Shown here in pieces: positions 212-32,877 of a stretch of DNA of 36,803 nucleotides; position 1 is the first letter of the stretch, and each line of letters opens with the position of its first letter. The stretch covers positions 1 to 36,803 of the forward strand of contig JAHITX010000118.1 in NCBI GenBank assembly GCA_018817425.1, in the 5' to 3' direction. The stretch is from Pseudomonadota bacterium. Its GTDB lineage: Bacteria; Desulfobacterota; Desulfobacteria; Desulfobacterales; RPRI01. Under the pieces are notes generated by a model. The model made no database searches and was not told the origin of the DNA. It saw only the letters and a list, made by a program, of their open reading frames with translations. The translations under genes were made by a program, and so were the position numbers.

Positions 212-1743
212 TCAGCTTGAATTATTGTACAGTGCAGCCTGAGCTGTCGGAGTGTCGGCTGTGAGAAGTATTTGCAGGAATTGTCCTGGGTGAACACCTT
301 GTCTTCTGGCGGTTTGTACTAGACTTGAAAGAATACTATGAGCTTTTAGGCCACTTTCTGATCGGGTTCCAAAACATATTTTGCGGAAGATAACCAGATG
401 CCTTAGAGACTGTTCTGCATGATTGTTTTTAGGCGGTACACCGGGATACCGGAGGAAAGTAAAAAGGAACTTTTGTTCCGGGCCTGTCAGATAAGCCCTC
501 AATGTTTCTGCGGGTTTGAACGAAAGCGGCCGTTTGCGGATGTTGGAAAGTTGTTTGATAAAGCGATTAGCGATGCCTTCCGCTGATTCCCAGGATATAT
601 CACCTGAGTTTAACTTCCTTGCTGTGTCGCAGGCTTTTTTGAAAAAGGCTATGACCCGATCACAAAACCGGTCTGTTGCTGTGTCTTTTTCGGCTTGCGG
701 CAATAATACATGTTCTCGTTTGACTTCTTTGGCTTTTGTTATTATATGCGCCAGACAGGACTGCCACTGACTTCCAATACCATTATAGGCAGCATACCGG
801 TCACGAACCAGGATGCCCTCAAAGTGTTCTCCGAAAATTGCTCTTGCCACGCTACCTGACCGATGTCTGTTTATGTGAAAATAAGCAAGTTTTTCATTTC
901 CGGCAAACCATACATAATGCCCTATACCGTCATTTCGCCAGGAGGTTTCATCAGCATGAACCACATCGGATACTCTGATTTTCTCAAGTAAATCTTCATG
1001 AATAGACGCTCCGCAAGCAGATGCTTTTCTGTCGAATCCAACAGCAGAGGCAGGAACAAATTTTAACCCAAATATATCACGAAATAACTCGGTCGTTTTT
1101 CTATAAGGGATACCTATTCGGTATCGCAAATAAAGTGCTACAGATTTTGCAACCGGACCGATAGGAGCATTTGAAATTTCATCTTCACCGGCACAACAGG
1201 ACGATTGCACCTTGTACAGAAAGCTTGCCCATGCAGAAAACGAGTAACCACAGTTCGTGGGTTAATGACAATGTCTTCCTGTATATGTTCGCGCAACTCC
1301 TTTAAAGGAGTCAGATGTTTCTTCCGGCAATAAGGGCATGTCGTTGGAGCAGGCACAAAAACGCTTTTGTCAATGCGCTTCGGTTTGGACCTCGCCCATC
1401 CGGGATGGCCCACCGGCGCACCGCGTTTTTTCTTTTTTTGTTGGTTGGAAGACGAGCCTATATCCTCTGAAATACTATCGTCTTTTTTCTTATTTGCTTT
1501 AAATTGCTTCTGATGCAACATTTTTAATTTTGCCTTAAGCTCCGAATTCTCCCCTTCCAGAAAGCGTATCCGTTTATCTCTGTTTGCTAAGCTATCATAA
1601 AATTTATCGATTATCCGCAGATGCTCACTGTAAACATCTTTGCCTCTTCGGTACTCACCCAGAATCCACTTGGTTGACAGCCAGTCCAGGTGAGGGCATG
1701 AGTCCTTATGAGGGCATTTAAAATCACGCGGCTGATAAAACAT
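212..1743 (-). pseudogene. IS66 family transposase (TnpC), frameshifted
   Basis: Two minus-strand reading frames together make one IS66 transposase. The upstream part (stop at 1138) starts at ATG 1743, one base after the stop of the small accessory ORF. It has a leucine-zipper-like segment, a GAPVGHPGW stretch and the CPYC...CTRC zinc finger. The downstream part (from about 1210) holds the DDE transposase: HADET, RDRYAAY and NHAEQSLR carry the catalytic D, D and E. The frames are not in phase. Homology switches from one to the other near 1189-1195 (after CNRPVV, resuming at GEDEISNAPIG), which fits loss of one base. There is no slippery heptamer at that point, so I read it as an inactivating indel, not programmed frameshifting. 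A sequencing error cannot be excluded. Confidence 0.85.
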
Positions 1744-1744
1744 G

Positions 1745-2023
1745 CTACTCGTTTTCAAGTTTAAGCAGTTCCCAGTTGACTTTAGACAAAGCCTGCATAA
1801 GCTTCCAGAGCATTTTATAACGGCTGCTCATCTCCAATGCTTTTGGAGCAATGATTTTTCGGACATAAAGTGTTACGGTTTTCCCTTCAACTTTGGTTGT
1901 GAGGTTATGCCCAGTCATAGACGGCGACTTTGCGACTGTCCCAATAAGAAAGGAATCGAGCATTGCACAAATGTCTTCCTTGAGTCTGGTTTGTTTTTTT
2001 TTCAGAATATCCGTACGTTTCAT
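1745..2023 (-). CDS. IS66-associated small accessory protein (DUF6788-like)
   Basis: A 92-residue protein that begins at an ATG preceded by AAGGAG seven bases upstream. It is basic at the N-terminus and ends in an amphipathic helix. The middle (SMTGHNLTTKVEGKTVTLYV followed by a long helical segment) resembles the DUF6788 proteins often encoded ahead of IS66-type transposases; this family call is from memory and not verified. Its stop codon is one base from the transposase ATG, so the two are probably translationally coupled. Its role in transposition is unknown. Confidence 0.65.
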   Translation of the reverse strand: MKRTDILKKKQTRLKEDICAMLDSFLIGTVAKSPSMTGHNLTTKVEGKTVTLYVRKIIAPKALEMSSRYKMLWKLMQALSKVNWELLKLENE

Positions 2024-2136
2024 ATTTGTCTCCTTAAATGAGTATTAATACTCCTGTAATTTACATAAAAAAAGGCCCGCTTGTCAAGAGAAAAGCAAAC
2101 CAAACTAAAAATAATGCTAAAATAGTTACCGAAAGA

Positions 2137-2149
2137 ACTAAACTGTTAC
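2137..2149 (-). repeat. Right terminal inverted repeat of IS66 element
   Basis: This is the reverse complement of 170-182. Just inside it, a degenerate second copy (GTAAC followed by TATTTTAG on the minus strand, ending at 2128) may be a subterminal transposase site. Confidence 0.8.
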
Positions 2150-2368
2150 GATGTATTTTTACGCGGGGAAATCCCTCGCGGAGAAATCCCGAATATCATC
2201 GGAATGCCTGAACGTTCAGCACGCAGGGTCGTCAGTAATTTACTGGTAAAAGGATATTTGGTTTCCGATTCGGAAAAAGGGCCTGTAATGCTCGGTTTTC
2301 CAGCATCCGTGGTGGGATATTATTTCCCTCGCCTTTATCCTGAAGGAGTTGAATCCAATCTTGATTAA
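2150..2368 (+). pseudogene. C-terminal remnant of a Fic-family protein
   Basis: In the frame that begins at the IS boundary (GAT at 2150), 72 codons read through to TAA at 2366-2368. The peptide contains LRGEIPRGEIP, GMPERSARRV, KGYLVSDSEKGPV and YYFPRLYPEG, which is the winged-helix C-terminus typical of Fic/DOC AMP-transferase proteins of the DUF4172/Fic_N type. The catalytic Fic core (HPFxxGNGR) is absent, since everything upstream is replaced by the IS element. A 15-bp near-tandem duplication (CGCGGGGAAATCCCT / CGCGGAGAAATCCCG, 2162-2191) encodes the doubled RGEIP. There is no start codon, so this is a dead fragment. Confidence 0.7.
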
Positions 2369-2383
2369 CCCATGTACTACTTC

Positions 2384-3445
2384 TTATTTACTGCAAATCC
2401 GGCATCCAAGCAGGCATTGCGGGCACAACAAATGCAGCGAATCGCAAAACCCTGCATTATATGTGCTTGTCCCGCATCCTTCACAAACTAACGGATCAAT
2501 CGATTTGCTTGAAGGGTTATATATCATGGCAAGTTTTTTTGTTTTCCGGCCGATGGCTGCATTGTAGCTAATCTTAACGGATGGAGAATTAATGATCATG
2601 GCTCCGCATAATACAAGCCGTATCTTGATGCTGTATTTTTTAAAAAGGTCATCTTTTTTTTTCTCAAGCTCAAGAGGAATTAATAGTATCTTTTCCTGGC
2701 GATCCGATTTTAACTGATCTGAAATACCCGGCCTTTTCAAGCTGTTTTCCATTTCCCGCTTTAGCCCGGTATAGTATTCATCTAAATTATCAACATCCCG
2801 TTTAAACCGTCTGTTCATGTTGCTCTGAAACATTTTAATTTCATCGGCAAGAACAATAGGAACATTATTTTCGACCGCCTGAATCAACCTTTCAATTACG
2901 GTTTTTTCAATAACACTTTTCCTGTTCCCTGATTCATATTTTTTTTCGGTATAATAAAGAGCGTCTTCTATTCCTGCAACACAAGCTCCGGTTTCAAGAT
3001 TAAAGCACAAAGACACCATGCCTTCTTTCTGTTCATCGCTTTGAGCTATATACCGACATGGAAGAACAATATACCGGGTTAATGTTTCAGCATGGTTTTC
3101 AACCGTACCTGAAGCGCCGTTAAACGAAAATATATCCGTTATCAGCTTGTCAAATCCCTGGCTTTTTATATAATTAAAATGCAGTGAGCATTCCACCACC
3201 GGAATGGTATCACAAACATGGTTTAATATTTTATCAAGAAACGCTGAACCGTATGCAACGGAAAAATCCCCCTGGGCATCTTCTCCGGTTTGAACTTTAA
3301 AATGATCGGGAGTATTTAGTTGCTCCGCCAATGCTTCAGGAAGCAGTACTTCCATCTGATCTGCATGACTTTCCGTTGCTACACCATAAATCCGAAAAAA
3401 TTTTTTGGAAAAATCTGTGAGCGTTTGGTCAGAGTTAGAGTTCAT
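2384..3445 (-). CDS. Cysteine-rich protein of unknown function, coupled to SNF2 helicase
   Basis: About 353 residues; I do not recognise a family. The best start is ATG at 3445, because GGAGAA lies just upstream; an in-frame TTG at 3457 would add four residues. The gene overlaps the end of the helicase gene by 11 bases, so translation is very likely coupled. Visible features are a mixed alpha/beta N-terminal half, a charged, probably coiled-coil segment around residues 195-260 (NMNRRFKRDVDNLDEYY and following), and a C-terminal cysteine cluster (CEGC, then C, then CPQCLLGCRIC) that looks like a zinc ribbon or treble-clef metal site. The tight linkage suggests that it acts with the helicase, perhaps as its nucleic-acid or RNA-polymerase adaptor. 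That role is inference. Confidence 0.7.
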   Translation of the reverse strand: MNSNSDQTLTDFSKKFFRIYGVATESHADQMEVLLPEALAEQLNTPDHFKVQTGEDAQGDFSVAYGSAFLDKILNHVCDTIPVVECSLHFNYIKSQGFDKLITDIFSFNGASGTVENHAETLTRYIVLPCRYIAQSDEQKEGMVSLCFNLETGACVAGIEDALYYTEKKYESGNRKSVIEKTVIERLIQAVENNVPIVLADEIKMFQSNMNRRFKRDVDNLDEYYTGLKREMENSLKRPGISDQLKSDRQEKILLIPLELEKKKDDLFKKYSIKIRLVLCGAMIINSPSVKISYNAAIGRKTKKLAMIYNPSSKSIDPLVCEGCGTSTYNAGFCDSLHLLCPQCLLGCRICSK

Positions 3446-5771
3446 AATTTTCTCCAAAAAGATTCTTGTCTAGTTCTCTGGTTTTTTCATGTTGTGTTTT
3501 TAAACGCTTCAAATGCGAACCAAAACCGGCAAATTCTTTTTCCCGTTCAGCCTGAGATGGTGCATTAACCCAGATATTATATACAATATCCTCGAATTCG
3601 GATTCTCCGTGGATACGGCCGATTATCATATCAATCTCACCGATAACCATTTCGAACATATTAATTTTACGGTCAAGGATCTCAAGTATATGATCCTCAA
3701 TACTCCCGGCATTACACAGATTATAAATCATTACCTGTTTGTCCTGACCTATCCTGTGAATTCTTCCTATACGCTGCTCGATTTTCATAGGATTCCACGG
3801 CAGGTCGTAATTAACCATCTGACAACAAAATTGGAGATTTCGGCCTTCTCCGCCAATCTCGGTAGTGATCAGAACATCCTTTTGTTCACGAAAAATACGG
3901 ATTTGTTCATCTTTTGTAACATTGTCCATACTGCCGTGAAAAAGGACATGCGGAATATCGTACCAGGTTAAAAATTCGGAAACCTGCTCAAGTGAACCAA
4001 TATATTTTACAAAAACTATAATTTTACCTTTTTGTTTCTGTATCAGTTTGAGAAGTGTTTTGTTTTTTCCCGTTTCTCCCATAATTGTGCGGCACAGATT
4101 GACTATTCTTCTTATTTCATCCTGATTCTCATCCGGCAGGTCTTTTTTGGCAAGAATCCGGTTCAGAGTGATTTCCAGTGCCCGCGGCGATGATCCTGCT
4201 TCAGCAAGCAGATTTTTCAGTAAAAGCCTGGCTCCGGCACCTTTTGTCCGGTTGATGGCATCAACCAGACAAACTACGCGTTCATACAACTCGTTTTCAC
4301 TTTGCCCCGGTTCAACACGAATTGTTTGTGCAAATCTGGGTGGAATATCAATCTTAGCCAAAGCCCTGGTATTGCGGATCATCACCTGACCGAGAAGTTC
4401 TCTTAACTGCCTTTTGTTTTGAGGGCTGGCCGGATCTCCTTTTGTCATGAATTCTTTTCGAAATTCCGTTTGTGTCTTTAACTGGCCTGGTTTTAACAAA
4501 GTAATCAGGTTGTATAACTCCATAAGGTTGTTTTCAACCGGAGTCGCAGTTAAAAGCAGCAAGAACCTTTTTTTAAGGGCATTGACCAGTTTCCAGTTAA
4601 GCGTGCTGCGGTTCTTTAAGTGATGCGCTTCATCAACAATTACAATATCATATTCTCTTTCTGTTACATGTTTGAAATTTTTTGGTGATTTGGCATGGTT
4701 GATGGACGCCAGAATAAACGGCCTATCCCAAAAATCATCACTGTTCTTAAACTCGGGGTCATCAGTAGACGTAACATCTATCCCGAATTTCACTTTCAAT
4801 TCTTCCCGCCACTGGCTGACAAGAGGTGTAGGGGTCAGGATCAATGCGTTTTTTACCATTCCCCGCTGTATATACTCCTTAAGCACAATTCCGGCTTCTA
4901 TTGTTTTACCAAGGCCTACCTCATCAGACAAAAGCGCACGCCCTCTGAAGGTCTTTAAAACTTTTCTGGCTGTTTCCTCCTGATACCAAAATGATTTTAT
5001 ATTTTTTAAGGAAGAAAGGCAGATTAAATTTTCAAAAGAATCCATAAAATGGAGCCGGTGTGCTTCCAGGATCAAATTGTAAAGATCAACAGCAGCCGTA
5101 GTCCGGTTTTCTGCAAGACTTTTTGTGAAAGATAAAGTGTCAATCGAAAATGTCACCGGGATATCCGGCAAGTCCTGTTTTTGGGGTTTTGCAGGTTTTG
5201 CCGGAGGCTTCCTGTCGGAGTCAGCAGCCGGTTCGGGGTTTTCCTGTTTTATTATTGGCTTCCTTACGATTTGAATCTTTTTGGACTTGTTTTTCTGTTC
5301 AAGCATGTACAGGCAGTATTGCCTGGAATCGGCTATTCGGGATTTAATCTTATTTTTTTTCTGAATATGTATTTCCGGTAAACGGACAAGAAGTACTTCC
5401 AGAATATTTATGGCATCCTCAAACCGTTTTTCTTTAACAAGGGTATCGGCATAAAGCGGCAGGAATTCATTCTCCAGTTTGTTTATGCGGTACAATTTAT
5501 CCAATCCGATCAGCAAAACATCATTTCTTCCCATTTCACGCCCGATATAGATTAATTCTCTCAAGCAATCCTCATCAGCCGGACTTAGTTTAATCGCTTT
5601 TTGTAAATATATTAGAGCATTTTCGTAATCTTTGGATTGAATCGACCACATGGCTTCATCATAATAGAATTCCGATTTCAGGCCTTTATTTTCCGCATGC
5701 TTCGCTTTACGCTTGTTTAGCTTTTTGGCCTTTTCCCTTGCTTTTCGTTTTTCTTCCTTTGTTTTCGCCAT
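3435..5771 (-). CDS. SNF2/Swi2-family ATP-dependent helicase with N-terminal TPR-like region
   Basis: A 778-residue superfamily 2 ATPase. After a very basic start (MAKTKEEKRKAREKAKK) come about 110 residues of TPR-like helices, a proline/lysine-rich linker (about 165-205) and the two RecA-like lobes. Motif I is SDEVGLGKT near residue 290, motif II is DEAH at 380-383, motif III is LTATPVENN, and motifs V/VI are TTEIGGEGRN and QRIGRIHRIGQ near 666-676. The last is diagnostic of the SNF2/RapA group. Such proteins use ATP to translocate on double-stranded DNA and to remodel bound proteins; RapA recycles RNA polymerase. The TPR region suggests a protein partner, and the overlapping downstream gene is the obvious candidate. 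Whether it serves transcription, repair or defence cannot be told from sequence. Confidence 0.9.
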   Translation of the reverse strand: MAKTKEEKRKAREKAKKLNKRKAKHAENKGLKSEFYYDEAMWSIQSKDYENALIYLQKAIKLSPADEDCLRELIYIGREMGRNDVLLIGLDKLYRINKLENEFLPLYADTLVKEKRFEDAINILEVLLVRLPEIHIQKKNKIKSRIADSRQYCLYMLEQKNKSKKIQIVRKPIIKQENPEPAADSDRKPPAKPAKPQKQDLPDIPVTFSIDTLSFTKSLAENRTTAAVDLYNLILEAHRLHFMDSFENLICLSSLKNIKSFWYQEETARKVLKTFRGRALLSDEVGLGKTIEAGIVLKEYIQRGMVKNALILTPTPLVSQWREELKVKFGIDVTSTDDPEFKNSDDFWDRPFILASINHAKSPKNFKHVTEREYDIVIVDEAHHLKNRSTLNWKLVNALKKRFLLLLTATPVENNLMELYNLITLLKPGQLKTQTEFRKEFMTKGDPASPQNKRQLRELLGQVMIRNTRALAKIDIPPRFAQTIRVEPGQSENELYERVVCLVDAINRTKGAGARLLLKNLLAEAGSSPRALEITLNRILAKKDLPDENQDEIRRIVNLCRTIMGETGKNKTLLKLIQKQKGKIIVFVKYIGSLEQVSEFLTWYDIPHVLFHGSMDNVTKDEQIRIFREQKDVLITTEIGGEGRNLQFCCQMVNYDLPWNPMKIEQRIGRIHRIGQDKQVMIYNLCNAGSIEDHILEILDRKINMFEMVIGEIDMIIGRIHGESEFEDIVYNIWVNAPSQAEREKEFAGFGSHLKRLKTQHEKTRELDKNLFGENYEL

Positions 5772-5841
5772 ATTACAACACTCAAACCGATTATTAGTAA
5801 AACATCCTTGTTTAATAATACCTTTATGAATTATTGAAAGG

Positions 5842-5869
5842 TTGATATTAGAACAAAAAATTATATAAT
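5842..5869 (+). promoter_or_regulatory. Sigma-70-like promoter before the aminotransferase remnant
   Basis: TTGATA (5842-5847), a 16-base spacer and a perfect TATAAT (5864-5869) lie 58 bases upstream of the ATG at 5927, which also has AAGGAG before it. The promoter and ribosome site look intact although the gene behind them has collapsed. Confidence 0.5.
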
Positions 5870-5926
5870 TTCAATGCTAAACTATATATAAAACCGGAGA
5901 AAATATATCATACAAAGGAGCTTTTT

Positions 5927-6265
5927 ATGAACAGCATCTTTTCTGATCGGATTTCTGATGTCCCGCGTTCATTTATCCGCGAAATACTCAAGGTTGCACT
6001 TGATCCATCGGTAATTTCTTTTGCAGGCGGTCTTCCAAACAGAGAGCTTTTTCCCGTTGAGGAGATAAGAGAAGCAACAAATAAAGTATTTGGCATACAC
6101 GGAAGAGATATTTTCCAGTACAGTAATTCGGAAGGTTATCAGCTCTAAGTTAATACAACAAAAACACGCACTATGCGGCTTAATTTCTCATGTGTAGATG
6201 AAGCAACTATTCGGATTGGGATCAGGAAACTGGGAAATACAATTAAGAAACTAACAATAAAATGA
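5927..6265 (+). pseudogene. PLP-dependent aminotransferase (class I/II), internally deleted
   Basis: The first 73 codons (MNSIFSDRISDVPRSFIREI..., with FAGGLPNRELFP and IFQYSNSEGY) match the start of fold-type I aminotransferases related to the LysN/2-aminoadipate group, then stop at TAA 6146-6148. The last 30 codons before TGA 6263-6265 (MRLNFSCVDEATIRIGIRKLG) match the very C-terminus of the same family. Some 300 residues that should lie between, including the PLP-binding lysine, are missing. Both halves are in the same frame and separated by only about nine codons and one stop, so this is a large deletion with a short scar. No functional enzyme can be made. Confidence 0.8.
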
Positions 6266-6295
6266 TAAATATTTAACAAACCGATATTGTTCTTT

Positions 6296-6346
6296 GAAGC
6301 ACACCGCTACAACCAACGGTAAATATTATGCTTAGCGGCGTGCTTC
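6296..6346. terminator. Inverted repeat, possible terminator between convergent genes
   Basis: GAAGCACACCGCTA (6296-6309) pairs with TAGCGGCGTGCTTC (6333-6346): 14 bases with one mismatch and a 23-base loop. It sits between the aminotransferase remnant and the convergent gene at 6389-6727. There is no strong T-run on either side, so a repeat element is an alternative. Confidence 0.45.
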
Positions 6347-6388
6347 GTATCGACTTTAAAGACTTTCAATCAGTTTCATAATTTCCTA

Positions 6389-6727
6389 TTACAAAACAAT
6401 TGCCATATCCCCAAGCAAAACATCCGGAGGCACTGATTCACCACGGGCATTTATCTGTTCGAAGTAATCATGAAATCCGGTTTTGATTACTTCCTGTTCA
6501 AAAAATACTGCTTTTTGTTTATCGGGCATCTCCCATACTGCAATATACTTAAAATCGGCCTTGTATTCCGTGTCTTCGTCATTTATTGCAAAACTAATTA
6601 ATTTCACACCGGATTCGGTTAACATCCCAATTACAGGCAAAAGGCTGTCTATGTAAGATTTGCGCTCGTTATCCGAAAGTCCGACCCATGCCGGTTTTGG
6701 CTTCCATAATTCTACGTAAATATGCAT
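6389..6727 (-). CDS. Small conserved hypothetical protein (DUF6616-like)
   Basis: A 112-residue soluble protein with no signal peptide. The start MHIYVELWKPKPAWVGLS and the later FKYIAVWEMPD resemble small dimeric alpha/beta-barrel proteins (the DUF6616 group, recalled and not checked). The start is ATG 6727 with AAGGAGCT seven bases upstream. It is a single gene followed by the inverted repeat at 6296-6346. A second, longer imperfect hairpin (6769-6830) lies upstream, between it and the oxidoreductase gene. Function is unknown. Confidence 0.65.
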   Translation of the reverse strand: MHIYVELWKPKPAWVGLSDNERKSYIDSLLPVIGMLTESGVKLISFAINDEDTEYKADFKYIAVWEMPDKQKAVFFEQEVIKTGFHDYFEQINARGESVPPDVLLGDMAIVL

Positions 6728-6768
6728 TTGCGTAGCTCCTTATCTGTTTTAATTGTGTTTTAAGTATT

Positions 6769-6830
6769 GAGCCAGTTTCAAAACACCACGTTTTGAGCTT
6801 GAACAAACTGAAACGTTTTTAAATTGGCTC
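6769..6830. repeat. Long imperfect inverted repeat, probably terminator of the upstream unit
   Basis: GAGCCAGTTTCAAAAC (6769-6784) pairs with GTTTTTAAATTGGCTC (6815-6830), 16 positions with two mismatches. It lies just after the stop of the oxidoreductase gene (6848) in its direction of transcription. A terminator is likely, although the loop of 30 bases is long. Confidence 0.4.
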
Positions 6831-6847
6831 TATTGGCAAATAATATA

Positions 6848-7762
6848 TCATATGCTTGATAAAACTTTATAAACTTTCTCATGGTATGGGACACTAAGTC
6901 CATACTCTTTGGCACAATTTATTATGTATCCTGTGAATATATCAAGCTCCGTTTTTTTCTTTCTTTCAAAATCCATTTGCAGTGAAGATTTAGTTTCATA
7001 TGGAAACAATGATACCTTATCAATTGACTTTTTGCAAATATCATCGGGAAGAAAAATCTTTTGATATTTTGAAACATTTTCAACTTCTTTTAATAGCCCT
7101 ATTAAGATGCTTTTGCTTTGTTCATCCTCCATAATTTCGCCGAATGTCTTTTTGCAATAAGAAGTAGCACTTGCAAGAGGAGAAACAAACATATATTTTT
7201 CCCATATAACTTTCTTTATGTCTTTGCGGTATTCGGCCTTTATACCTGCATCTATTAGTAACTGCTCAATTTCCAAATATTCTTTACTTGTACTTTCATC
7301 TCCAAAATAAAATTGACATGATCCGCCCGATTGCCGGACAACACCGGCTTTTTCAATTGATGCACCGATATATACGCAGCCGTCTAATATCCGAGTATCA
7401 GGAAGCACAGCCTTTAAACGTTGTGAGTTATTCACACCGTTTAATATGGTAATCGCCACCGTGTTTTTATTCACACAATTTTTAAATAATTTTGCACTTT
7501 CTTCAAGATCATAGCTTTTCACACAAAATATTATTAAATCAAACAAACCGCAACTTTCCGGATCACTGCTTGCTTTGTAAGGTCTTGCAACAAAAGTACT
7601 CTCATCTGCAATTACTTTTAAGCCGTTTTTCAGAATTTCTTCCAGATGTTTTCCGCGGGCTATAAATACTGTTTTCATATCTTTTTTGTTTTCACAATAC
7701 TTTGCCAGTTTCCCGCCAAAATATCCGCCCACACCACCGATTCCCATTATTGCGATATTCAT
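6848..7762 (-). CDS. Ketopantoate reductase-like oxidoreductase (ApbA/PanE family)
   Basis: A 304-residue protein with a Rossmann NADP-binding start (MNIAIMGIGGVGGYFGG) and the two-domain layout of 2-dehydropantoate 2-reductase. In E. coli PanE the segment WRKLAVNCVIN supplies Lys176, Asn180 and Asn184. Here the matching segment is WEKYMFVSPLA: the lysine is kept but both asparagines are replaced (V and A). The substrate may therefore not be ketopantoate, and I give no gene symbol. It starts six bases after the ABM-fold gene and is the last gene of the ferredoxin/FmdE unit. That context points to a specialised reduction, not vitamin B5 synthesis, but this is inference. Confidence 0.8.
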   Translation of the reverse strand: MNIAIMGIGGVGGYFGGKLAKYCENKKDMKTVFIARGKHLEEILKNGLKVIADESTFVARPYKASSDPESCGLFDLIIFCVKSYDLEESAKLFKNCVNKNTVAITILNGVNNSQRLKAVLPDTRILDGCVYIGASIEKAGVVRQSGGSCQFYFGDESTSKEYLEIEQLLIDAGIKAEYRKDIKKVIWEKYMFVSPLASATSYCKKTFGEIMEDEQSKSILIGLLKEVENVSKYQKIFLPDDICKKSIDKVSLFPYETKSSLQMDFERKKKTELDIFTGYIINCAKEYGLSVPYHEKVYKVLSSI

Positions 7763-7768
7763 TTTAAT

Positions 7769-8062
7769 TCATGTAACCTCTTTAAAGAGATTTACCGACA
7801 CTGATTCAATAAACTCGCCTGCTGTTTCCTTAAAACTCAGCAAATATGGTTGTTGGCTGTGAAAATCAAAAGATTTTCTATCAGCAAATTTTTCTATCAT
7901 TGTAAACAAGTTTGGATTTTCAAGCCCTTCGTAAAGAACATAACTTATGCAACCTTCTTCTTTTCTGGTCGGTTCAATCAGGGCACTTAATGCATTTTTT
8001 AATTTTTCTGCACAACCTTCTTTAGCAATAAATGTTGCAACACAGGTAATATGTTCTTTCAT
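7769..8062 (-). CDS. ABM-fold monooxygenase-like protein
   Basis: A 97-residue protein of the antibiotic biosynthesis monooxygenase (ABM, YgiN-like) family. It shows CVATFIAKEG at the start, the central LIEPTRKEEGCISYVLYE and the final DFHSQQPYL, the usual dimeric ferredoxin-like fold. Some members oxidise quinols or polyketides without cofactors, but many have no known activity, and an oxygen-using role is doubtful in an anaerobe. It lies 20 bases downstream of the FmdE-like gene and six upstream of the reductase gene, so it belongs to the same operon. ATG 8062 is preceded by AAGGAAGG. Confidence 0.8.
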   Translation of the reverse strand: MKEHITCVATFIAKEGCAEKLKNALSALIEPTRKEEGCISYVLYEGLENPNLFTMIEKFADRKSFDFHSQQPYLLSFKETAGEFIESVSVNLFKEVT

Positions 8063-8082
8063 TTCGTTACCTTCCTTTTTTT

Positions 8083-8769
8083 CTAAAGCCTATGGTTGAA
8101 ATTTTCTGATGAGATATACCTGGATTTGCCCTGACAGCTTAAGCATACTGATCCATCTTTTTGAGGATAGGCTTCTCCGCAGTTAGTACATACAATTATT
8201 GCACCTTTGCTGTGCTTGCCCAAATATTTACTATCAATAGTTATACTTTGTATTCCACAGATATCAGCGCCTGCTTCCTCGATTTGTTCTAAAAGCAAAT
8301 CTTTGTTCTGTTCGCTTTTTGTTTTGAGCTTAAAAAGCCAGCTTTTAATCTCCGGATAGTTTTCCAGCTTTTTCGGATCTAAATAAACACGAACCCCTTC
8401 TCCGGTAAATTTATCATAAAGGCTTAAGGCAAACAGGCCTAAATTGTTTACTGTAACCCTGCCGTTTCCTGTGGTACATGGTGTAAGTACCTGAATAGCA
8501 TCAGGAAGACAGCTGGAAGTCTCACAAAGAGCCTCGAAAAGTACTCCTTCAGGCATATGCTGCAATGCATAATCGACCATTATTCCTCCGACAAGGATTC
8601 CCGGAGCTGGGTATCCATGAAAATCTTTGGCAGCAGCCACATACTCTTTAAAAGAATAATGGCCAATCATTTTTTTATTATTTTTCATTACTTTTTCCCA
8701 AATATATTTTTTTAAAATTATATCGACACATAAGGTGCTATTTGCACTTGCCTGTGCAACATTACTCAT
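8083..8769 (-). CDS. FmdE-family protein with C-terminal zinc ribbon
   Basis: A 228-residue protein of the formylmethanofuran dehydrogenase subunit E (FmdE) family. Typical marks are FHGYPAPGILVGG, the cysteine-containing ETSSCLPDAIQVLTPCTTGNG and a C-terminal CTNCGEAY...CLSC zinc ribbon. FmdE is a minor subunit of the archaeal enzyme; free-standing bacterial members are common in sulfate reducers and of unknown function, possibly metal or molybdopterin handling. The family core starts at MIGHYSF (8670). ATG 8688 is a plausible true start, with a weak GGGAAA upstream, and the first 27 residues of the longest frame look unconserved. It follows a ferredoxin gene by 66 bases, and no other formylmethanofuran dehydrogenase subunit is in the window. 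Confidence 0.8.
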   Translation of the reverse strand: MSNVAQASANSTLCVDIILKKYIWEKVMKNNKKMIGHYSFKEYVAAAKDFHGYPAPGILVGGIMVDYALQHMPEGVLFEALCETSSCLPDAIQVLTPCTTGNGRVTVNNLGLFALSLYDKFTGEGVRVYLDPKKLENYPEIKSWLFKLKTKSEQNKDLLLEQIEEAGADICGIQSITIDSKYLGKHSKGAIIVCTNCGEAYPQKDGSVCLSCQGKSRYISSENFNHRL

Positions 8770-8835
8770 GGATGAATCATTTTCAACAAATAATTCCTCT
8801 TTTGAAAAGAATTGATACTAACGCATGGGTATATG

Positions 8836-9072
8836 CTATTCATCAAAGATTACAGGATCAAGTACAATAGCTCTATATGCACAAACCTTTGTGCACTTAT
8901 TACATCCAACACATATGGAACCACGCTTTAGTCTTGTTTTTTTTAGTTTCTCATCAAAGATGATGTATTGTTTTGAGCAAACTACAATGCATTTTTTGCA
9001 ACTTTGACATTTATCAGATTTAATCCGAATTCTATAGGCTAAATGCTTCTTTGCCTGTGCTACGGTATTCAA
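8836..9072 (-). CDS. Two-[4Fe-4S] ferredoxin-type protein
   Basis: A protein of 78 residues carrying two CxxCxxCxxxC motifs, CQSCKKCIVVC and CVGCNKCTKVC, for two [4Fe-4S] clusters. Neither has the usual proline after the last cysteine. I choose TTG at 9072 as start because AGGAGGT lies five bases upstream; the frame stays open to an ATG at 9174, but that extension has no ribosome site and is rich in basic residues unlike a ferredoxin. It is the first gene of a minus-strand unit continuing with the FmdE-like, ABM-fold and reductase genes, for which it could supply electrons. The divergent tgt gene starts 280 bases away. Confidence 0.8.
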   Translation of the reverse strand: MNTVAQAKKHLAYRIRIKSDKCQSCKKCIVVCSKQYIIFDEKLKKTRLKRGSICVGCNKCTKVCAYRAIVLDPVIFDE

Positions 9073-9352
9073 CGGATACCTCCTCTTGACTCTTCTTGAA
9101 AACAACCCAATCCGGCTTCCCCGGTTTTTGAAATCAGATAAATTTATATAATACAAGATTGTATCAATTATCAAATACTAATGTGCTTTATTAATATATT
9201 GATAGCTTTTTTAAAATAAAATATGCATTAATGAAAATTCGTAAAAGTTGTGATACTTGCAAGAATAGGAATATTGAAATATAAGAGAGTTGGATTTATT
9301 ACATTGATAATAATTGCTTTATTAAAGGCCATCAAAAACTACGGAAATAAAA

Positions 9353-10492
9353 ATGAAATCAAAAGACATCGGATTTAAACTTATTGCCATTGATTCATGC
9401 GGTGCAAGACGGGGGGAATTTCAAACGGCTCACGGCATAGTGCATACTCCTGCCTTTATGCCTGTGGGCACCGCCGGATTTGTACGATCTATTACTCCAA
9501 GAGATGTTGCCGAAACGAATTCCGAAGTTGTGCTTGCAAACACTTATCATCTTTCCATCGGTGAAAGACTTGCTACGGTTAAACGATTGGGAGGTCTTCA
9601 CCGTTTTATGGGCTGGAATAAAACCATACTTACCGACTCAGGCGGTTTTCAGGTTTTTTCTCTTCCCGGAAAAGAAATAAGCGATGACGGCGTTTCTTTT
9701 TCCTATGAGGAAGGCGGAGAACGCATTTTCTTTTCTCCTGAGCGCTCAATGGAAATTCAGCGTGATCTTGGAGCAGATATCGTAATGGCTTTTGATGAAT
9801 GTGTCGAACATACGGCTTCAAGAGAATATATACGGCAATCGGTTGAACGGACTACCGAATGGGCAAAACGCTGCCGAAAAGTTGAATTAAAAGAATACCA
9901 GTTTATGTTCGGAATCGTTCAGGGCGGTATTTTTCCTGAACTTCGGCAAAAAAGTGCTGCCGGAATCACCTCGATTCCTTTTGACGGTTATGCGATAGGC
10001 GGAGTCAGCGTAGGCGAGGGTTTCGAGCTTATGAAAAAAGTGGTTGAAATCACAGCACCTTTATTACCGGAACATAAACCCAAGTATTTAATGGGGGTTG
10101 GACTTCCTGAAGATTTGCTTGCAGCGGTAAAAGGCGGAATGGATATGTTCGACTGCGTAATTCCTACAAGATACGCCAGACAAGGAACCCTTTTTACACG
10201 AATGGGTAAAATCAGAATTCTTGATAAAACCTACCGTAAAGACAAGTTTCCCCTTGATACAAAATGTCAGTGCTACACATGCAAAACATATCCACGAATG
10301 GTTCTGCGTTATCTGCTGTTTTCCCGCGATCCTCTTGCTGAAACACTTCTTACCATTCACAACCTGACCTTTTATCAGGATTTAATGAAAGACATAAGAA
10401 ACGCCATAAAACAAAACCGCTATGATGATTTTTGCGAAGAATGGCTTGAAGTGTATAAGAAAAAAAGCAAAAAGAACCAAGCTATCGAGTAA
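9353..10492 (+). CDS. tgt: tRNA-guanine transglycosylase (Tgt)
   Basis: A 379-residue enzyme that swaps guanine 34 for the queuosine precursor preQ1 in GUN-anticodon tRNAs. Visible marks are the N-terminal VHTPAFMPVGTAGFVRSI, TDSGGFQVFSL with the general acid/base Asp, GIVQGG, AIGGVSVGE, and MFDCVIPTRYARQGTLFT carrying the nucleophilic Asp. The zinc site is C-x-C-x2-C (CQCYTC) plus a distal His in LTIHN. Length is normal. One oddity is that the usual ANTYHLxLRPG reads ANTYHLSIGER. The ribosome site is weak (GGAAATAAAA). It appears to be a single gene; a hairpin follows at 10558-10578. Confidence 0.95.
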   Translation: MKSKDIGFKLIAIDSCGARRGEFQTAHGIVHTPAFMPVGTAGFVRSITPRDVAETNSEVVLANTYHLSIGERLATVKRLGGLHRFMGWNKTILTDSGGFQVFSLPGKEISDDGVSFSYEEGGERIFFSPERSMEIQRDLGADIVMAFDECVEHTASREYIRQSVERTTEWAKRCRKVELKEYQFMFGIVQGGIFPELRQKSAAGITSIPFDGYAIGGVSVGEGFELMKKVVEITAPLLPEHKPKYLMGVGLPEDLLAAVKGGMDMFDCVIPTRYARQGTLFTRMGKIRILDKTYRKDKFPLDTKCQCYTCKTYPRMVLRYLLFSRDPLAETLLTIHNLTFYQDLMKDIRNAIKQNRYDDFCEEWLEVYKKKSKKNQAIE

Positions 10493-32523: not shown

Positions 32524-32877
32524 GGGGGCGAAACGGCTTCGACGGGGATAAAGAAGTCCAGGTTGCATACCGAGCGCCTGTCAGCTCGTAACAAGAGACG
32601 GGAAATAAAGATAATCGCAGACGATTATAATTACGCATTGGCCGCTTAGGGCCAACGTCCTGTCCTGTTTTTCCTGCGGATAAGATAAGGGCGTCGACTA
32701 GTAGGATAGATGAGTTGTACCACCTGTTGCAGACCATCGAAACAATAACAGGGTAGCCGGCTTATGCATCTTGCCTGAAGGAGGCATGATCTGGCGATAT
32801 ATAAATTTCAGGAAAAGTATGTAGACGCCTGTGCGGAAGATTTTCGGACGCGGGTTCAACTCCCGCCGCCTCCACCA
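32524..32877 (+). ncRNA. ssrA: Transfer-messenger RNA (ssrA)
   Basis: The 354-base tmRNA starts GGGGGCGAAACGG with the usual GGCTTCGACGGGGA and ends in a T-arm/acceptor (GCGGGTTCAACTCCCGC, then CGCCTCCACCA). The 5' GGGGGC-type acceptor half pairs with GCCTCC, and the CCA is encoded. The tag frame is at 32617-32649: GCA GAC GAT TAT AAT TAC GCA TTG GCC GCT TAG, i.e. ADDYNYALAA, close to other deltaproteobacterial tags. A run GGCCGCTTAGGGCC overlaps the tag stop as a stem. An integrase gene lies just downstream, so the 3' end is also the attachment site of an island. Confidence 0.97.
32845..32877 (+). other. Probable attL site in the 3' end of ssrA
   Basis: tmRNA 3' ends are well-known targets of tyrosine integrases, and a P4-type integrase starts 182 bases downstream. 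I could not find a second copy of the T-arm/acceptor sequence up to 36803, so attR must lie beyond the window. The limits given are approximate. Confidence 0.6.

Follow-up and report, generated by a model that had tools for sequence, protein, structure and literature searches.

A SNF2 helicase and an overlapping partner gene in Desulfobacterota: a candidate two-chain relative of RapA

A 36,803-nucleotide stretch of Desulfobacterota DNA (order Desulfobacterales; GenBank assembly GCA_018817425.1, contig JAHITX010000118.1), called the window below, carries a gene for a 778-residue SNF2 helicase and, overlapping its last codons, a gene for a 353-residue partner protein. The helicase and partner genes are a two-gene unit. 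We consider that the pair is probably a DNA translocase of the SNF2 type, built from two chains, which remodels protein-DNA complexes and differs from RapA in its target or in how it docks. In predicted fold the partner appears to be the missing C-terminal end of a RapA-like protein, made as a free subunit, and since the helicase covers RapA residues 177-635 and the partner residues 705-967, the two genes seem to span between them a RapA-like machine split into two parts. Positions of all features are given in Table 1.

Linkage and inheritance of the two genes

We surveyed 291 genomes of the class by using a partner profile built from two sequences and a helicase threshold of E <= 1e-100. The partner was found in 51 genomes and the helicase in 48, with both present in 47. 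In the one helicase-only genome (G182) the helicase runs to the contig end on the partner side; the partner-only genomes include two with end-of-contig pieces (G005 and G281), one in which the helicase is cut by a contig end (G139) and one with broken pieces (G012). A sequence-only reading of the window had proposed a two-gene system, which is borne out by the 47 genomes with both genes and by five exceptions that are contig ends or broken copies; across the 291 genomes the partner was not seen to occur widely without the helicase. That reading had also noted the 11-base overlap of the two frames, which can be read directly and has exactly the same length at 35 of the 46 loci with a measurable junction. 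Nine further loci range from a 4-base overlap to a 7-base gap, and the remaining two have a broken helicase (the broken or cut copies L089-L092 were dropped from the counts). Identity matrices for helicases and partners are correlated (r 0.92 for 41 pairs, a value reached in 0 of 999 permutations), and a SNF2 gene lies directly ahead of the partner in all 6 plasmid records described below. No constant third gene was found within about 10 kb of the pair. Because the genomes are shared, the junctions alike, the identities correlated and no third gene constant, the helicase and partner form a two-gene unit. Their products very likely work together, given the 47 genomes with both, the explanation available for each of the five exceptions, and the presence of both modules in the single chain of RapA.

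Genes downstream of the partner lie on the opposite strand in 29 of 46 loci and lack a counterpart at the other loci in 33. The commonest encodes a two-component-type protein, found in 9 of the 46 loci and mostly among related genera; in 8 of the 9 it is encoded on the opposite strand. It was rejected as a conserved third gene on the grounds of its orientation and its lineage-bound occurrence. RadC-like and small helix-turn-helix groups were also rejected, as each is confined to the same genus, at four loci. Core synteny with housekeeping genes, tested in part through these counts, was not apparent.

A scan of genome contigs with one conserved peptide pattern recovered 70 loci, mostly from metagenome-assembled genomes and isolates of Desulfobacterota, for example Desulfosarcina alkanivorans and Desulfobacter vibrioformis. 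It also matched Candidatus Magnetominusculus, and three loci are titled Actinobacteria or Actinomycetota, which may be mislabelled bins. At the level of the phylum, the pair was found in 30 of 395 genomes. Six of 72,556 plasmid records carry it, five cyanobacterial and one from Rhodovastum. The cyanobacterial plasmid copies (L163-L165, L167 and L168) have, in individual records, genes for ParA/ParB, a RelE-type toxin, a relaxase or an integrase close by. For 35 of 39 copies the closest partner belongs to the same family, the window copy being one of the four exceptions, so that inheritance looks mostly vertical with some transfer. A viral origin was considered and rejected: no tblastn match was obtained in 50,697 phage records, and none of 15 matching viral-contig stretches was confirmed, in a search that reaches close relatives only.

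Helicase and partner compared with RapA

The helicase matches the Pfam families SNF2-rel_dom (5.5e-34) and Helicase_C (9.9e-24), and residues K289, D380, E381, R670 and R673 are invariant in all 42 aligned pair helicases; the catalytic residues are invariant in RapAs as well as in pair helicases. The alignment (A3) holds pair helicases longer than 700 residues and omits the shorter L054, L066, L079 and L084, together with L051, whose contig is without a helicase. A TPR_14 match (2.5e-5, 24.9 bits against a cut-off of 23.5) and paired helices modelled over residues 49-169, mostly with a predicted local distance difference test (pLDDT) above 85, point to a TPR-like head. The description of this protein as a SNF2 helicase with a TPR-like N-terminus, first made from the letters of the window, was therefore confirmed by Pfam matches and invariant catalytic residues. 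The TPR match was absent from the two plasmid-borne helicases scanned (569 and 522 residues).

Among relatives of solved structure, RapA scores best with the helicase (4.1e-36 and 5.4e-58), and the two match in profile comparison at E 1e-55. Residues 283-707 of the helicase model superpose on RapA 177-635 with Z 19.5 and a root-mean-square deviation (rmsd) of 5.7 over 380 residues, a match tied with those to many other SNF2 proteins. The helicase scores 202.9 bits with the NCBIfam RapA model NF003426, below its curated score of 576, and 240.1 bits with the DISARM DrmD model NF038318, far below its curated score of 950; its best PADLOC matches are DrmD (1.6e-71) and BrxH (3.9e-64). A tree built from 38 SNF2 cores groups the pair helicases, including five from plasmids, in one clade with support of 97/100 and sets RapA and DrmD-like proteins in separate clades of their own (100/100 each). 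Rows were chosen for this tree (13 of the 42 pair helicases, 5 of the 6 plasmid ones, 7 RapAs, 5 DrmD-like proteins and 8 other SNF2 proteins); some of its outer rows stand on very long branches, and its root is arbitrary.

The AlphaFold2 model of the partner is confident (mean pLDDT 89.9) and begins with an alpha/beta part, which is followed in order by a beta-sheet, three helices, further strands and the cysteine site. Two of the three helices form a long hairpin (204-236 and 243-271), in which R213, R216, D217, Y224, E231 and M232, among others, are invariant in 46 sequences. A Foldseek search of the Protein Data Bank (PDB) gave four matches at E <= 0.001, all of them to E. coli RapA (E 2.8e-7 to 1.1e-6, probability 1.00), and the next match stood at 0.31. 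With VIA, partner residues 1-289 align with RapA 705-967 (Z 9.3, rmsd 7.1, 238 residues), and RapA is the sole entry in the VIA list that aligns across this whole range. Similarity in sequence is faint: positions 105-139 of RapA_C (PF12137) fall on partner residues 4-38 with 12.4 bits and E 0.082, short of the cut-off of 26.8, and hhalign places partner residues 4-36 on E. coli RapA 710-742 at E 0.072. No PDB match was found by sequence below E 0.1, and no NCBIfam or PADLOC match at E <= 0.1. Searched at E <= 1 against the frames of 162 loci, including the SNF2 loci L005-L012 of the window genome, the partner profile matched no SNF2 C-terminus and, besides partners and their pieces, hit a single marginal frame (0.62).

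Several observations weigh against the kinship of the pair with RapA or against reading its two chains as halves of one machine. Unrelated bare hairpins of about 73 residues reach VIA Z-scores of about 8, TM-scores between partner and RapA are low (0.31-0.33 on the query) and the rmsd is high. The hhalign matches (E 0.047-0.072, probability about 1%) are not significant, the best of 40 column-scrambled controls having reached E 0.078. The helicase model is moderate overall (mean pLDDT 74.1), and no fusion of helicase and partner occurs among the loci and frames listed. Because bare hairpins also reach such Z-scores, we give more weight to the coverage of the alignment and to the gap in Foldseek E than to Z; and because the sequence signal alone is not significant, the proposed kinship of partner and RapA rests on predicted fold.

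By sequence the partner is also a remote relative of Bacillus YqhG. Five of the 46 partner relatives match the YqhG family PF11079 at E <= 0.01 (best 6e-7), and the window partner itself scores 16.7 bits, below the 25-bit gathering cut-off. The earlier view that the partner could be assigned to no family is thus superseded by the match to the RapA C-terminal fold and by this remote relation to YqhG.

A multi-cysteine metal site at the end of the partner had been proposed as well. Four of its last cysteines, C321, C324, C341 and C344, occur without exception in the 46 partners scored, and that part of the proposal stands; C334, C348 and C351, present in just 22, 18 and 19 of the 46, do not belong to a conserved site, and metal binding by the four is putative. 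The alignment scored (A2) includes 46 of 47 partners, L055 having been omitted since its match ends at residue 306 and its cysteine region reads X. In the five cyanobacterial plasmid partners the cysteine site is degenerate.

Table 1. Positions of the helicase and partner genes and of their parts in the window
Feature	Position	Strand	Basis
SNF2 ATPase with TPR head, 778 aa	3435..5771	-	ORF (open reading frame) call, Pfam, alignment of relatives
Partner, 353 aa from ATG; putative RapA C-terminal-module homologue by fold, YqhG-like	2384..3445	-	
TPR-like helical head, residues ~34-169	5265..5672	-	Pfam TPR_14 and helicase model
Swi2/Snf2 ATPase core, residues ~258-720	3612..5000	-	Pfam, profile and structure matches, tree
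Helicase tail, residues 708-778 (71 aa), presumably in the place of RapA 636-704 (69 aa)	3438..3650	-	by difference
Partner residues 1-289, fold-aligned to RapA 705-967	2579..3445	-	structure match; weak same-register sequence signal
Partner's long two-helix hairpin, residues 204-271	2633..2836	-	predicted model
Four-cysteine, zinc-ribbon-like site C321, C324, C341, C344	2414..2485	-	46/46 copies; metal binding putative
11-base overlap of both frames, ATGAACTCTAA	3435..3445	-	read from sequence
GGAGA, Shine-Dalgarno-like, five bases ahead of partner ATG	3451..3455	-	read from sequence

Probable action of the pair and alternatives

We infer that the helicase chain is the core of an ATP-driven double-stranded-DNA translocase. 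The partner would be the accessory module, an alpha/beta domain followed by a beta-sheet and hairpin, that is C-terminal in RapA and in BrxHII-type enzymes. It would bind the motor in trans, probably through the last 70 residues of the helicase, which sit where the RapA chain continues. The resulting complex would track on DNA and displace or remodel a bound protein complex, the target being chosen by parts unlike those of RapA, namely the TPR head and the terminal cysteine site of the partner.

The pair might instead be the functional counterpart of RapA and recycle stalled or post-termination RNA polymerase. In its favour, no relative of solved structure scores better with the helicase than RapA, and no other protein matches the partner strongly in fold; in addition, B. 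subtilis YqhH goes under the name HepA/RapA in PMC7385302 and is included there among proteins that interact with RNA polymerase. Nevertheless, we regard this alternative as unlikely, chiefly on account of the surface by which RapA docks. Six hydrophobic RapA residues that contact the flap tip of RNA polymerase are named in PMC8501970 (in part), and we scored each site as hydrophobic if it was V, I, L, M, F, W, Y or C. Among RapAs from the best 30 of 40 Desulfobacterota genomes over the cut-off, all six sites are hydrophobic in 27 and five in the other 3, whereas no site is hydrophobic in 38 of the 42 pair helicases and one in the remaining 4, including that of the window (V618). The six plasmid helicases have 0 to 2 hydrophobic sites and five DrmD-like proteins have 2 or 3. 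Similarly, R545 is retained in 28 of the 30 RapAs vs 7 of the 42 pair helicases. The N-terminal domain of RapA, which the polymerase zinc domain opens (PMC8501970, in part), is replaced by TPRs, and the pair helicases fall outside the RapA clade. A 2025 review (PMC12448304) assigns the role of rapA in B. subtilis to ywqA rather than to yqhH. With the docking patch gone, recycling of RNA polymerase by the mechanism of RapA itself becomes less likely, and the pair would therefore bind polymerase differently or act on another complex. The RapA-type remodelling of RNA polymerase mentioned in the first reading is weakened, as far as it depends on the known docking of RapA, by the loss of this patch.

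Nor does the pair simply replace RapA, because the two occur together about as often as expected by chance: 9 of the 291 genomes hold both the pair and a RapA_C match over the cut-off, against about 7 expected. Mutual exclusion of the pair and RapA was rejected on the same nine genomes. No RapA_C match was found in the window genome at E 0.001. In G095 a RapA_C gene is found no more than about 10 kb from the pair, on the same contig (C279, L066).

An anti-phage or anti-plasmid defence unit, comparable to the SNF2 helicases of DISARM, BREX type 3 and ARMADA, is in our view rather improbable; it stays a live rival because DrmD, BrxHII and ArmA share the architecture of the pair. DrmD and BrxH are the best PADLOC matches of the helicase, the distribution of the unit is patchy (51 of 291 genomes of the class and 30 of 395 of the phylum) with some cross-family copies, and the pair is carried on plasmids of five cyanobacteria and Rhodovastum. 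Two of the loci examined are also set among defence genes. We compared two sets of near neighbours, 157 of 158 genes in all (76 and 81, a piece of the pair in L089 having been dropped), with 92 far genes; the near sets match 70 and 55 PADLOC families and the far genes 10. However, one gene can match many families, and three genes of L044 yield 27 of the 70. Among the 25 of 70 and 25 of 55 near families listed, none recurs except mad3, which matches 4 of 81 near genes and also 3 of 92 far genes; each of the other listed families matches one gene, and no Drm family is among them. Of 20 near genes scanned singly, 7 match at E <= 1e-20, a figure that gives no rate as they were picked partly for size. 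The neighbours of the pair at L044 (G190 contig C108) include a type I restriction subunit (2.1e-295), a 1041-residue DpdE/ZorD-like SNF2 gene and an RtcR-type regulator, and this locus is defence-like; at L059 a Wadjet JetD gene (4.2e-140) is near the pair. The L044 partner is 78% identical to the L043 partner from another family.

A defence function, with which the first reading considered the neighbourhood compatible, has the setting of these two examined loci in its favour and the lack of a recurring defence family against it. Other evidence against defence includes the score of the helicase with the DrmD model, the lack of a nuclease or methylase as a constant part of the unit, the mostly vertical inheritance, and the want of a match in phage records or of a confirmed one in viral contigs, by a close-relative search. 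Pfam scanning revealed no DrmA, DrmB, DrmC or methylase among 10 ORFs of the window.

It is very unlikely that the partner is a metal protein unrelated to RapA, with a hairpin that has come to look alike by convergence. Unrelated hairpins do abound in the VIA list at Z 6-8, and the sequence similarity is not significant, but only RapA aligns over residues 1-289 and has a Foldseek E below 0.3, the order and position of the partner fit the missing end of the helicase, and the faint sequence matches share one register.

Returning to the two-chain translocase, we tentatively suggest a wider reading, in which the pair would belong to a separate line of two-chain SNF2 remodellers that extends across phyla, with a free RapA/BrxHII C-terminal module, lineage-specific readers and a DNA-bound target other than the flap tip, and in which YqhG would be the same subunit. 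If so, motor and target reader could be separately regulated and swapped; the readers would be the TPR head and four-cysteine (C4) site in Desulfobacterota, and the cyanobacterial plasmid versions would have no TPR head and no intact C4 site. On the two-chain reading as such, a YqhG-like family of function "unknown" would gain a structural identity and a testable role, and the adjacency of YqhG-like genes to SNF2 helicases would be explained. The motor and accessory end, fused in RapA, would here be separated, and since the flap-tip patch is lost, the pair would offer a natural test of the RapA-type C-terminal module apart from RNA polymerase docking. No statement of such a two-chain split was found in the openly licensed literature searched.

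Surrounding genes and known systems

The insertion sequence reported beside the pair was verified as an IS66-type transposase at 215-1758 (-). It is apparently split over two frames, with the DDE part at 215-1210, and is therefore likely frameshifted; the ORF at 1141-1758 (-), without a Pfam match, we take to resemble the N-terminal part of such a transposase. The Fic fragment also reported there was not recovered among the 10 ORFs scanned in 215-10489 (Pfam, E <= 0.01), and the small ORF at 1748-2023 gave only a weak match to DUF6788. Upstream of the helicase, a 73-residue ORF at 5927-6148 (+), with no Pfam match, presumably resembles a truncated N-terminus of a pyridoxal phosphate-dependent aminotransferase. 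A tmRNA gene with the tag ADDYNYALAA lies at 32524-32877 (+). The window genome (G000) also carries DrmD-like SNF2 genes on contigs C1 and C123 (L005 and L007), with open frames of 1018 and 598 residues, of which the 598-residue one looks short.

The pair resembles E. coli RapA (HepA) in its SNF2 core, in the fold of the C-terminal module and in overall domain order. It differs in being encoded by two genes, in having a TPR head in place of the N-terminal domain, in having lost the flap-tip patch and in falling in a separate clade, and its partner adds the C4 site. In having a SNF2 helicase gene beside a YqhG-type gene it resembles YqhH/YqhG of Bacillus, where we understand yqhG and yqhH to be direct neighbours. 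This likeness rests on the PF11079 profile and on papers rather than on Bacillus sequences, and the window partner extends beyond the 258-position YqhG profile with its cysteine site. PF11079 is labelled as a family of unknown function, and E. coli yqhG is a name clash with the Bacillus gene. According to PMC6123443, yqhG and yqhH map to the same region of the B. subtilis chromosome. YqhH of B. thuringiensis, by name the closest relative to have been tested, has ATPase and helicase activity in vitro, and deletion of yqhH lowered survival after 30 min of UV, slightly raised it after 60 min and left total helicase activity unchanged (PMC10054049, in part).

Among defence proteins, the pair shares its RapA-like architecture with BrxHII of BREX type 3, ArmA of ARMADA and DrmD of DISARM. 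At the end of both BrxHII and RapA stands a beta-sheet with a pair of long helices (PMC12839542). DrmD, BrxHII and ArmA are single chains within multi-gene defence systems (PMC12839542 and PMC12458937, as excerpted), whereas the pair studied here consists of two chains, and the five DrmD-like proteins compared with it lie in a separate clade.

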